Assembly (NCBI GenBank): GCA_016212295.1
Contig: JACRGO010000046.1
Location: forward strand, 1 to 39,011
Direction of reading: 5' to 3'
Length of the DNA: 39,011 nucleotides
Origin: Nitrospinota bacterium
GTDB taxonomy: Bacteria > Nitrospinota > Nitrospinia > JACRGO01
The notes under the pieces were generated by a model, which searched no databases, was not told the DNA's origin, and saw nothing but the letters and a program-made list of their open reading frames with translations. A program made the translations under genes and the position numbers. Shown here piece after piece: positions 33,158-36,476 of the stretch (position 1 is its first letter; every line of letters starts with the position of its first letter).

Positions 33158-34159
33158 ATGGAAAAATATCCAAAGCTTTTTTTAAAGGCCGGTTTGGTGT
33201 ATCTGGCGGCAGGCGCGCTGGTAGGGGTGCTGATGGCCTGGGACTTGGTGGACCCTGTCACATACCGGTTCGTGCATTTCCATGTGAATCTCCTTGGATT
33301 CATGTCCATGACGGTTTTCGGCGTGGCCTTCCACATACTGCCCCGCTTCAATGGCAAGCCTATCCCCCATCCCTCGTGGCTTCCCTTGCAATTTTTCCTC
33401 ATGAACGCCGGACTTATCGGCATGGTGTTCTTTTTTGTTTCAGGCGGCTATTGGGAGCCAGGGGTGAAGTCCGTTCTCTTTGGAAGTTTTTCAGTGGTGA
33501 TGTCTGCGGCAATCTTTCTTTTTATATTTAATATTTTCCCTATTCTGGTGGATCCGCCCCGCGTGGTTGTTCCGGCGCAAGCGCCGGTTTCCGCTTCAGG
33601 CCAGGGCAAGGCAGGGGCGGACAAGATATCGGGCAACATGAAGGTCGCGGCGGTTTTGGATACCTGGCCCGATATTGTCAGGATTTTCGTGGACCATGGT
33701 TTCAAGGCCCTGGCAAACCCCGTGGCCAAGGCCGCCTTCGCCAAACTGATAACCATCTCCACCGCTTGCAAAATTCACAACGTTGACGAAGCGAAGTTCT
33801 TGGCCGCGTTGAATGATTTCGTGAAGGACTCGGACAAGGCCCCTCCTCCAGCCGCGTCAAGGCCCCAACAGTCCGCTGCCGCCCCGGCGAAGCCTAAAGA
33901 GCCGGACACCTCTTCTCTTCAGGCCGAAGGCAAGGGGATAGCCAGGGGGGAAAAATGCACAGGGGAGGTTTTAGTGGGCAAGCTTATTGAAACCTATCCT
34001 GAGACGAAAAAAGTATTTGAAAAACATTACGGGTCCGCCTGCTTTTCTTGTCCTGGCCAGGCGTTTGAAACCATCAAGCAAACCGCCGCTATGCACAACG
34101 CCGACCTAAGCATGATTTTGGGCGAGATCAACGCGGAGATAGATAAGGCGTTAAGTTAG
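33158..34159 (+). CDS. Haem-copper-oxidase-like membrane domain fused to two DUF1858 domains
   Basis: A 333-residue fusion. Residues 1-130 form four membrane spans resembling the cbb3 subunit I/NnrS-like module (H40, H42 in HFHVNLLGFMSMTVFGVAFHILP and H59 could bind haem). After a proline/alanine linker come two DUF1858-type domains: 160-222 (AAVLDTWPDIVRIFVDHGFKALANPVA) and 265-330 (VLVGKLIETYPETKKVFEKHYGSACFSC). Only the second keeps the C294xxC297 pair; the first has alanine and asparagine there. Between them a low-complexity A/P/K linker is present. DUF1858 is typical of hybrid-cluster or nitrosative-stress-related proteins. No strong Shine-Dalgarno site is visible. It is divergent from apgM. 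Confidence 0.75.
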   Translation: MEKYPKLFLKAGLVYLAAGALVGVLMAWDLVDPVTYRFVHFHVNLLGFMSMTVFGVAFHILPRFNGKPIPHPSWLPLQFFLMNAGLIGMVFFFVSGGYWEPGVKSVLFGSFSVVMSAAIFLFIFNIFPILVDPPRVVVPAQAPVSASGQGKAGADKISGNMKVAAVLDTWPDIVRIFVDHGFKALANPVAKAAFAKLITISTACKIHNVDEAKFLAALNDFVKDSDKAPPPAASRPQQSAAAPAKPKEPDTSSLQAEGKGIARGEKCTGEVLVGKLIETYPETKKVFEKHYGSACFSCPGQAFETIKQTAAMHNADLSMILGEINAEIDKALS

Positions 34160-34185: not shown

Positions 34186-34309
34186 TTGAACATCGAACAT
34201 CCAACTTTGAACGTCGAACGTCGAAAAAGGAAGAAAGTATTTAAAACGTAAAATGAATTTTTATTACTTCGATGTTGGACGTTCGATGTTCGACGTTGGA
34301 CATTCAGTT
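34186..34309. repeat. Palindromic repeat of GAACATCGAAC / GTTCGATGTT units
   Basis: GAACATCGAACATCCAAC and GAACGTCGAACGTCGAA on the left pair with TTCGATGTTGGACGTTCGATG and TTCGACGTTGGACATTC on the right. The same family occurs at 36107-36258 and in reduced form near 146-162. Confidence 0.75.
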
Positions 34310-34422: not shown

Positions 34423-35094
34423 ATGAGCATGTTTCTGGGGCCGATCCATTATTGGCTTTTCGGCAAGATCAAGATCGTGGAATCTCGAAGGGACGCTTAT
34501 ATCAACGCGTTGAAGGGGAAGTTCGGAGATGAGGCCGCCGGGATGATTGAAGGGCTGAACAAGGATTACGGCGCGAAGCTTGATAGCGGCCAGCCGCTGG
34601 AAAATATGGTCGGCAACAACCCGATACACGGTTTTCTGCAGTCCCTGATTCAAAAAGTCGAGGTGGGTGAAGGAAAGCTTGTGGCCGCGGCCTTTGACAA
34701 ATTCAACGGCGACGCATTTAACCTGCTTCTGGAGGCGTCGGAAAAACACGGCAAGGAAACCGGCGAGCGCGCCCTGAAGGAAAAAGACATTTCAGACCCC
34801 TCGGCAGAGGAGGTTTTCGGCCTTCTTAATGATTATCTCCTTGAGGGAATGCCATGCGACCAAGCGGCCTTTGCCCACCCGAAATCCCAAAATTCCTTTG
34901 ATCTGGAGCATAAACTTTGTCTGCATGTTACAAATTGGAAGGCGGCGGGGGCGCCTTTCATGGAGATGTGCTGCTTCACACATGCCTGGATCGGCGGCTT
35001 TGTCAAGGCGACGCAGCCAAGGATGAAGTATGAAAGCAAGGCGGCCATAGCCGCTGGAGACCCCGGCTGCCTGGCGGAGTTCAACGGGGACTAA
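34423..35094 (+). CDS. Conserved-looking protein, possibly ATC-hydrolase-like
   Basis: I cannot place this 223-residue protein with certainty. It begins SMFLGPIHYWLFGKIKIVESRRDAY, is mainly helical, and has a C-terminal cysteine/tryptophan block (MEMCCFTHAWIGGFVKATQP) followed by AIAAGDPGCLAEF. The last part recalls the L-2-amino-thiazoline-4-carboxylate hydrolase (ATC hydrolase)-like family ending (A.GdprCef), but this is a motif-level resemblance only. AAGGGG lies about 11 nt before the ATG. It sits between the membrane/DUF1858 fusion gene and a small toxin-antitoxin-like pair, with a promoter-like motif of its own, so it is probably a separate unit. Confidence 0.7.
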   Translation: MSMFLGPIHYWLFGKIKIVESRRDAYINALKGKFGDEAAGMIEGLNKDYGAKLDSGQPLENMVGNNPIHGFLQSLIQKVEVGEGKLVAAAFDKFNGDAFNLLLEASEKHGKETGERALKEKDISDPSAEEVFGLLNDYLLEGMPCDQAAFAHPKSQNSFDLEHKLCLHVTNWKAAGAPFMEMCCFTHAWIGGFVKATQPRMKYESKAAIAAGDPGCLAEFNGD

Positions 35095-35174: not shown

Positions 35175-35489
35175 GTGGACATCGAAGATATCAGAGCTAA
35201 AATTCGTGCCGACAGATATGTATATACCCATCATGCGGAAACCGAGCGTAAGACAGACGAACTAACCATTGCCCAAGTTGAAGAAGCATTGCTTAATGGA
35301 AAAATACTTGAGCAATATTCCAATACTGGCCGCGGGGAAAGCTGTCTGGTAGCCGGCTTCGCGGGGTATTTGCCTGTTCATATTGTTTGCGGTTGGCGTG
35401 GTGAAAAAATAGCGCTTATTACAGTCTACATCCCACGTCCACCGAAATTCGCAGGCCCATATACGCGAGGAGACATAAGTGGCGCATAA
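35175..35489 (+). CDS. DUF4258-type toxin-like protein
   Basis: A 104-residue protein matching the DUF4258 pattern: RAKIRADRYVYTHHAETERKTDELTIAQVEEALLNGKILEQY...GRGESCLVAGFAGYLPVHIVCGWRG...ALITVYIP. In other genomes this domain is found next to YgiT-type zinc-finger proteins and is regarded as a RelE-like toxin candidate. The start is a GTG at 35175 without a clear ribosome-binding site. It overlaps the finger gene by 11 nt. The order toxin first, antitoxin second is like MqsRA. Preceding DNA (35098-35130) has a partial copy of the GAACGCGGATAA repeat. Confidence 0.8.
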   Translation: MDIEDIRAKIRADRYVYTHHAETERKTDELTIAQVEEALLNGKILEQYSNTGRGESCLVAGFAGYLPVHIVCGWRGEKIALITVYIPRPPKFAGPYTRGDISGA

Positions 35490-35730
35490 AATCGAATGCA
35501 ATTTTTGCGGCAGTGATCGCTGTGAGGAACGAAAAATCGAATATCTATACAGCCACAAGGGCAAATACTTGCTTGTGCCGAATACTCCTGTTGAAATTTG
35601 CCTAAACTGCGGGATGATTTACTACGATGCCGCTGTTCTCAAGGAGATCGAGCATCATTTTTTCGCCATTCAGCATAAAACTGAAAAACCAGACCGCTAT
35701 ATTGAGATGCCGGAAAAGGCATACGCTTAG
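35479..35730 (+). CDS. YgiT/MqsA-type zinc-finger antitoxin
   Basis: The 83-residue protein has a two-CxxC zinc finger: C8xxC11 in IECNFCGS and a second pair in PVEICLNCGMIYYD, the YgiT-type signature, followed by a short helix (AAVLKEIEHHF). No HTH domain follows, so DNA binding is less sure. The GTG start (35479) has GAGGAG 6 nt upstream and overlaps the DUF4258 gene by 11 nt, indicating translational coupling. This is the third toxin-antitoxin-like unit of the window. Confidence 0.85.
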   Translation: MAHKIECNFCGSDRCEERKIEYLYSHKGKYLLVPNTPVEICLNCGMIYYDAAVLKEIEHHFFAIQHKTEKPDRYIEMPEKAYA

Positions 35731-35860: not shown

Positions 35861-36085
35861 ATGAAGGAAAAAATTGAAAAGGCATTGGATGAAATCCGGC
35901 CCGGTCTTCAGGCAGACGGAGGAAACGTGGAGTTCGTGGACGTCAATGACGAGGGGGTCGTGTTTCTCAGGATGGTCGGGGCCTGCTCCGGCTGTCCAAG
36001 CTCGCAGATCACATTGAAGATGGGCATTGAGCGGAAATTAATGGAGCGCATCCCGGAAGTAACAGCGGTGGAAGCGGTGCCGTAA
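35861..36085 (+). CDS. NifU-like C-terminal (NFU) domain protein
   Basis: A stand-alone 74-residue NFU domain, an Fe-S cluster carrier. It has the canonical EIRPGLQADGGNVEFVDV and the CxxC in VGACSGCPSSQITLKMGIERKL. The start ATG at 35861 has AGGAGAAGG in front. It would receive a 4Fe-4S cluster from scaffold proteins and pass it to clients, possibly the siroheme reductase two genes downstream. A palindromic repeat separates it from the ScdA_N gene. Confidence 0.95.
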   Translation: MKEKIEKALDEIRPGLQADGGNVEFVDVNDEGVVFLRMVGACSGCPSSQITLKMGIERKLMERIPEVTAVEAVP

Positions 36086-36106
36086 CGTAAATCATAAGGA
36101 AAAAAC

Positions 36107-36258
36107 CTGAACATCGAACACTGAACATCGAACGTCCAACATCGAAGGGGAGAGCGAGTCATGTGCCATGCGTAGTGAGTCATGTGCTAACGACACACAA
36201 CGCGTGACGCACAACGCAAAGCTCATTTCGACGTTCGATGTTGGACGTTCGATGTTAA
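36107..36258. repeat. Palindromic repeat of GAACATCGAAC units, second copy
   Basis: GAACATCGAACACTGAACATC and GAACGTCCAACATCGAA pair with TTCGACGTTCGATGTTGGACG and TTCGATGTT. A loop of about 80 nt contains GTCATGTGCCATGCGTAGTG and a second GTCATGTGC. Confidence 0.75.
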
Positions 36259-36287
36259 TTATTTTTACATACGGAAAGGTCCGGCCC

Positions 36288-36476
36288 ATGTCTTTGGAAA
36301 TAAATGAAAACACCACCATAAATGAAATCACGCGGGCATATCCCAATACCCTGGCGATATTCAAGGAATTTCACGTTGATTCCTGCTGCGGCGGAGGGGA
36401 CTCCCTGGCCCAGGCTTGCCAAAAAGGAGGCCAGGACCTCGACGAGTTGATCGAGACCCTGAAGAACTCCATTTGA
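36288..36476 (+). CDS. Stand-alone ScdA_N (DUF542) domain protein
   Basis: A 62-residue protein equal to the N-terminal domain of RIC/YtfE/ScdA iron-sulphur-repair proteins: TTINEITRAYPNTLAIFKEFHVDSCCGGGDSLAQACQ with the CC pair, and a final helix. The hemerythrin domain that normally follows is missing, so it may act with another protein or bind a ligand by itself. Start ATG 36288 with AAAGG about 9 nt upstream; longer upstream frames lie in repeat DNA. The stop TGA overlaps the TTG start of the siroheme-reductase gene (TTGA), suggesting coupling. Confidence 0.9.
   Translation: MSLEINENTTINEITRAYPNTLAIFKEFHVDSCCGGGDSLAQACQKGGQDLDELIETLKNSI

Follow-up and report, generated by a model that had tools for sequence, protein, structure and literature searches.

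The fusion of one evolutionary unit of the haem-copper oxidase (HCO) fold to two DUF1858 domains defines a conserved protein family rather than a peculiarity of a single genome, and the same few parts come back in different phyla, either fused or encoded by adjacent genes. The member described here is encoded in the window, that is, the whole stretch of 39,011 nucleotides analysed (contig JACRGO010000046.1 of the Nitrospinota assembly GCA_016212295.1). An open reading frame of 333 codons plus stop, with a product of 333 aa, lies on the + strand at 33158-34159, exactly where the original prediction, made from the sequence of the window alone, had placed an oxidase-like/DUF1858 fusion (Table 1). 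The AF2 model of the product (mean pLDDT 83.9, pTM 0.54) has helices at residues 3-27, 33-65, 74-94 and 103-131, in agreement with the four membrane spans that had been proposed, followed by two small helical domains. A linker rich in A/P/K had been described as joining the membrane part to the DUF1858 domains; such a linker is present, but in the model the main one (pLDDT below 50) separates the two DUF1858 domains, and it is a shorter disordered stretch, residues 137-152, that connects the membrane part to the first of them. A PHROGs scan of the fusion protein returned nothing useful (E 0.1).

Table 1. Coordinates in the window of the fusion gene, its parts and the genes downstream
Feature	Position	Strand	Basis
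Fusion gene: four-helix single-unit HCO domain, DUF1858 (no CxxC), DUF1858 (CxxC)	33158..34159	+	ORF, Pfam, NCBIfam, AF2
Membrane domain (residues 1-135), corresponding to a third of the HCO catalytic subunit	33158..33562	+	AF2, profile searches, VIA-align
H40-x-H42 codons, putative haem ligands	33275..33283	+	alignments, HMMER
H59 codon	33332..33334	+	alignment
First DUF1858, residues 157-214, without CxxC	33626..33799	+	Pfam, alignment
A/P/K-rich disordered linker, residues 229-255	33842..33922	+	AF2
Second DUF1858, residues 268-325	33959..34132	+	NCBIfam, alignment
C295-x-x-C298 codons, within second DUF1858	34040..34051	+	alignment
ATC_hydrolase-like partner, predicted H-NOX/TRAPP/V4R-like fold	34423..35094	+	tblastn/HMM, model
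nfu (NifU C-terminal domain, Fe-S carrier)	35861..36085	+	Pfam, tblastn/HMM
ScdA_N (DUF542) mini-protein with DSCCGG, start uncertain	36276..36476	+	Pfam
NIR_SIR (sirohaem/4Fe-4S) half protein with uncertain start, found at the same place in L047	36416..37108	+	Pfam

The original prediction had proposed a survey of other genomes for the same fusion and its neighbours, and this finds the fusion widespread and present in several phyla. Matches at E 0.001 occur in 55 of 77 Nitrospinota genomes, some via small DUF1858 proteins or stand-alone units only; in 31 of the 77, G025 with its in-frame stop among them, a single alignment spans almost the full length, and in G001, G036 and G063 two aligned pieces lie in one open frame. 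The fusion is also carried by G002, of the same genus as the window. A wider genome collection yielded 151 candidate stretches, 120 of which are relatives; 80 were kept, and the fusion is found in 63 of these, in rows longer than 250 aa, which with the window makes 64 fusion rows in set A2. Eight of the 80 loci are omitted from A2 as cut by a contig end, partial or short (L073, L106, L112, L113, L116, L119, L122 and L123), and set A1 omits L015 (in-frame stop) and L027 (cut by a contig end). The titles of the relatives name Nitrospinota, Nitrospirae, Deltaproteobacteria/Desulfobacterales, Zixiibacteriota, Latescibacterota, Calditrichota, Rokuibacteriota, Spirochaetia and Pseudomonadota, the spread over phyla being read from record titles that belong mostly to metagenome-assembled genomes and can be wrong. 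A tree of the 64 fusions joins the window to L047 (100/100) and separates the Nitrospinota side from all others. An explanation by chance or by a purely local joining is rejected on the basis of the 55 of 77 genomes with matches, the 31 of 77 full-length cases and the 120 relatives among 151 stretches.

Oxidases and NO reductases are made of three similar four-helix units, an HCO catalytic subunit having about twelve helices in three units and a full set of metal ligands. The window protein alone matches the Pfam COX1 profile (PF00115) at E 3.3e-5 with 23.4 bits, under the cut-off of 34.8, and with four helices, two invariant histidines and this score it falls outside COX1 itself. Fused relatives do exceed the cut-off (G071, 36.6 bits; G072, 39.2; G075, 35.2), as does the form of G001 with one DUF1858 (37.6 bits); the match of G002 (35.8 bits) was left out because it extends upstream of the gene through stops. 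A profile of 32 diverse single-unit sequences (A4), searched against the PDB, matches CcoN of cbb3 oxidase at E 3.8e-20 (9g6b) and 8e-18 (3mk7), in three stretches each, one per third, of which the first two are weak and the last strong; it matches NorB (4xyd) at 3e-6, and in the CcoN-like protein L175 it covers all three thirds (23-164, 171-302 and 311-458, with 31, 40 and 47 bits). Among the Nitrospinota single units, some align with the COX1 profile in its first third (G049, 6-147; G019, 4-148) and others in its last third (G072, 302-425; G071, 303-427). VIA-align overlays residues 1-135 both on the first third of an oxidase (5z62, 12-171) and on the last (6wti, 376-524), each with Z 13.9, although by the tool's own caveat a Z near 13 is possible between unrelated helical bundles; a Foldseek search of the PDB with the fusion model yielded nothing at E 0.001 or below. 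The COX1 scores of the relatives, the A4 matches to each third and the overlays together identify the membrane module as a single unit of the HCO fold, homologous to the HCO thirds and best to the last, and the domain identity of the fusion protein as a whole is virtually certain.

The membrane domain had been called NnrS/cbb3-like, and of this the COX1/cbb3 relationship stands, firmly so once the relatives are included. Membership of the NnrS family is rejected, since the NnrS profile (PF05940, length 371) gives E 0.014 and 15.2 bits against a cut-off of 28, over the last third only; NnrS is more than twice as long and has no DUF1858. NnrS has been linked to the NO response (an excerpt of PMC1274295); none is found in the window's genome, and 17 of the 77 Nitrospinota genomes pass the NnrS cut-off. 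Compared with CcoN of cbb3 and NorB, the fusion protein has a homologous unit, but one instead of three, and shows no sign of the other metal-binding histidines. Four-helix relatives of each HCO third, most of them of the last, were reportedly described by Pei et al. in 2014, with conserved histidines and a proposal of homotrimers; to this type of unit the fusion protein adds two DUF1858 domains. The expectation of a new architecture as a singular find was therefore mistaken, the fusion being a conserved family and its single-unit HCO relatives having reportedly been described already. The single-unit idea of Pei et al. is cited and used in PMC4602095, as far as an excerpt of that paper goes. 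Parts and unit type are known, then, and a search of open-licence PubMed Central found no published description of the fusion, its spread or its split form.

Three membrane histidines had been singled out; the window protein does contain all three (H40, H42 and H59), but only two can be counted as functional candidates: all 73 sequences of A2 and all 32 of the wider A4 set have H40 and H42, whereas position 59 is occupied in A2 by H in 44 sequences and by F in 29. The residues invariant across the 32 diverse units are Y15, G23, H40, H42, N44, G47, M51, P62 and N125. In the HMMER alignment H40-x-H42 falls on the H-V-H of CcoN, whose histidines hold the two haems; the membrane unit of the fusion probably binds haem. 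The mean number of K+R is 1.41 before helix 1 and 2.27 in the loop between helices 2 and 3, against 0.37 in loop 1-2 and 0.45 in loop 3-4, a bias that points to cytoplasmic N- and C-termini and would put the HxH motif at the periplasmic end of helix 2. There is perhaps an even chance that the protein assembles as a trimer. Styrene oxide isomerase is a four-helix homotrimer with haem b bound at the interface through H58 (an excerpt of PMC11374702); both it and the fusion have four-helix membrane folds, and the isomerase is described as an interface-haem b trimer with cytosolic termini (excerpts of PMC11374702 and PMC12502698); it matches the fusion in fold by VIA-align, with no sequence similarity found, and its chemistry is different.

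The tail is clearly assigned, with 89.1 bits for DUF1858 (PF08984, cut-off 32.2) in two stretches, the best at 157-214, and 68.7 bits for TIGR03980 (NCBIfam, cut-off 44.95), again in two stretches, the best at 268-325. The profile searches agree with the proposed oxidase-like domain and paired DUF1858 domains, one with CxxC, the COX1 side via the relatives. The second domain, above both family cut-offs, carries the motif CFSCPG; C295, C298 and H313 each occur in 64 of 64 fusions and C267 in 31 of 64. As had been noted, there is no CxxC in the first domain, but the view that it had lost both cysteines is disfavoured: its closest solved relative, PDB 2fi0 (E 4e-4), is also pair-free in the aligned stretch, and H207 is present in all 64 fusions and C204 in 51 of them, so that the domain looks like a pair-free subtype rather than a degenerate copy. 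L119 (224 aa) and L043 (263 aa) consist of the membrane unit and a single CxxC-bearing DUF1858 only, which makes the CxxC domain the constant partner and the pair-free one dispensable. DUF1858 also occurs as a CxxU selenoprotein (an excerpt of PMC9312934), which favours a redox thiol role; compared with the TIGR03980/DUF1858 mini-proteins, the second domain differs in being tethered to a membrane unit. Hcp, the namesake partner of TIGR03980, gave no match in the window's genome (90.5% complete) and was found in 7 of 77 Nitrospinota genomes, which lends it no support as a partner.

In Nitrospirota the same parts are found as separate genes. A stand-alone unit is matched in 129 of 198 genomes at E 0.001, a count that includes matches to larger oxidases, and the loci considered below come from the best 30 of the 129 matching genomes and are the closest relatives of the query. 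A DUF1858-type gene lies near the separate membrane unit in 20 of these best 30 loci by HMM search, on the same strand in 12 and on the opposite strand in 8; since those 30 genomes hold 46 DUF1858 matches in all, 0.06 such loci would be expected. The neighbour is a CFTC(P/A)G mini-protein in 19 of the 20, and in L145 there is only a ScdA_N-like match. In the remaining 10 of the best 30 no DUF1858 neighbour is found in the examined stretch, and stand-alone membrane modules without one exist. Directly upstream and on the same strand, nfu is found in 7 of the best 30, and a ScdA_N-like protein (DSCCGG) is encoded near the unit in 4 (L144-L147), in three of them between the unit and the CxxC protein. 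It is from these nfu, ScdA_N and DUF1858 loci, together with the window and L047, where the fusion has nfu and ScdA_N downstream, that the recurrence of the parts across phyla is evident.

The original prediction had read the nearby NFU, ScdA_N and sirohaem reductase genes as signs of a nitrosative or sulfur redox role. The first two do appear meaningful, as they adjoin the same membrane module in Nitrospirota along with DUF1858 genes, but the sirohaem reductase neighbour has its support within one genus, in the window and L047. The link to nitrosative chemistry is favoured by six related deltaproteobacterial loci (L081, L083, L084, L087, L096 and L111) with norC-norB directly upstream on the same strand, at 5 to 300 nt; the norB product of L087 matches cNOR NorB (3o0r) at E 1.6e-113. 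Of the 28 fusion loci outside Nitrospinota that have 1.5 kb of upstream sequence, these 6 have norCB before the fusion and the other 22 do not. The linked loci belong to a single clade of seven, whose remaining member (L086) showed no norB, and they count as one linkage event retained by the other six. Most Nitrospinota carry the NO-making NirK and lack norBC and nosZ, according to an excerpt of PMC10839748, and according to an excerpt of PMC6710368, a DUF1858 gene beside nnrR in Bradyrhizobium is dependent on the NO-response regulator NnrR, being listed at -29.2 in the nnrR mutant. Most Nitrospinota neighbours (by reading, glycosyltransferase, SH3, MazG and others) give no functional hint, and neighbour counts are rough unless re-tested by tblastn/HMM, the gene caller having picked shadow frames and left 8 of 81 records without the target gene.

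The window's own neighbours are loosely spaced, with 263 nt, including an imperfect inverted repeat, before the next gene. Intergenic imperfect inverted repeats are seen at 34188-34305 and 36095-36271, with arms of 42-45 nt that are 76% complementary and a common core, TTCGATGTTGGACGTTCGATGTT; both seem to belong to a single family of short repeats carried by this genome. The stretch at 35175-35730, after the partner gene and before nfu, holds overlapping DUF4258 and YokU/MqsA-like genes that resemble a toxin-antitoxin pair, and in L047 nfu comes directly after the partner gene. In the Nitrospinota loci L048-L051 a FmdE-family gene is downstream of the fusion and a CopD/DUF4149 gene upstream.

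The reading that we tentatively favour, at somewhat under an even chance, is that of an oligomeric membrane haem protein which exchanges electrons or signals via its cytoplasmic CxxC tail in a setting of NO defence and Fe-S repair. Residues 1-135 would form one four-helix HCO unit, three copies of which probably assemble; H40 and H42, in helix 2 towards its periplasmic end, would hold haem b at the subunit interfaces; the DUF1858 tails would hang in the cytoplasm, where the charge bias places the termini; and the CxxC of the second domain would exchange electrons with soluble partners or report the haem state to them. Gene context makes nitric oxide defence together with Fe-S protein repair the likely setting. 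Taken separately, coupling of the membrane unit to the thiol (CxxC) domain is about as probable as its absence, and a role in NO, suggested by the gene context, is plausible at rather less than that. A bolder version, in which a homotrimeric one-third HCO binds or reduces NO and passes electrons to or from its own disulfide domain, is decidedly unlikely; if true, it would be a membrane haem-to-thiol wire in nitrite oxidisers that make NO by NirK without norBC, and a living protein that demonstrates the workings of an ancestral single oxidase unit. As a widespread single unit tied to a cysteine-pair domain by fusion and by gene order, the family offers a simple system for testing haem use; DUF1858, a domain of unknown function, would gain a membrane partner, and the protein could shed light on NO tolerance in abundant nitrite oxidisers that have no norBC.

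A signalling role is the foremost rival, though an unlikely one: the haem unit would sense NO, O2 or the state of the quinone pool, and DUF1858 would relay this, with no bulk electron transfer, to a soluble regulator or an H-NOX/V4R-like partner. A candidate for the latter is encoded next downstream of the fusion in seven loci (the window, L047, L053, L056, L072, L076 and L079) and upstream of it in L119. Its similarity to ATC_hydrolase is distant (6 of 8 members match, best E 1.7e-6), and a profile search against the PDB by sequence gave nothing (E 0.63 and above). The model, built from 8 sequences (pLDDT 80.8), has a sensor-like predicted fold that resembles H-NOX (2o09, Z 8.9), TRAPP and V4R sensor domains, at a modest Z of 7-9. 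The haem motif of H-NOX is YxSxR, and it is absent from all 8 partner sequences. Paired DUF1858 domains with disordered linkers would also suit a scaffold, and according to an excerpt of PMC6282519, DrpB of Thermus, a nitrate/NO-related regulator with DUF1858, regulates genes of nitrate respiration and is in part membrane-bound; as described there, however, DrpB has DUF1858 plus two DUF2249 domains and, unlike the fusion, no membrane domain. Against signalling, neither the fusion nor any constant neighbour has a kinase, cyclase or DNA-binding domain, and a pure scaffold would not need the CxxC that is kept in 64 of 64 fusions.

It is improbable, more so than signalling, that the protein is an accessory or maturation factor which delivers haem, copper or Fe-S to respiratory complexes, the CxxC handling metal or thiol. 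The nfu genes upstream in 7 of the best 30 Nitrospirota loci, norCB upstream in six loci and four proteins in which DUF1858 is fused to SufT (an excerpt of PMC4982691) would fit such a factor, but the neighbours vary by lineage and are mostly unrelated housekeeping genes, and COX1 matches above cut-off occur in only 16 of 77 Nitrospinota genomes, single units included, the fusion being commoner. A haem enzyme whose substrate is a lipid or a small organic compound, comparable to styrene oxide isomerase (as a Lewis acid) or to a glutathione-using MAPEG-like trimer, is very improbable, for although VIA-align matches the fold to the isomerase (8pnu, Z 10.6, rmsd 3.3 over 128 residues) and to LTC4 synthases (Z about 9), the latter have rmsd above 5, the HxH motif follows the oxidases, and neither enzyme has a sequence match up to E 10, the isomerase being absent among the 38 sequences matched by A4 to that limit.

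Other arrangements of the four-helix unit were seen alongside the fusion. In the Nitrospirota survey, L163-L166 (281-286 aa) have two tandem four-helix units with HxH in the first only, possibly a two-third oxidase relative, and L167 has 430 aa and three unit stretches. In L036 and L037 the four-helix unit stands alone and has a C-terminal tail with CQEDCCP, which may be a thiol or metal site of its own. L168, L169, L171 and L172 are four-helix proteins of 160-206 aa with HGHINLLG, HTHINLLG or HAHVNLVG; at L169 and at L172 two four-helix proteins are encoded near each other, which may form hetero-oligomers.
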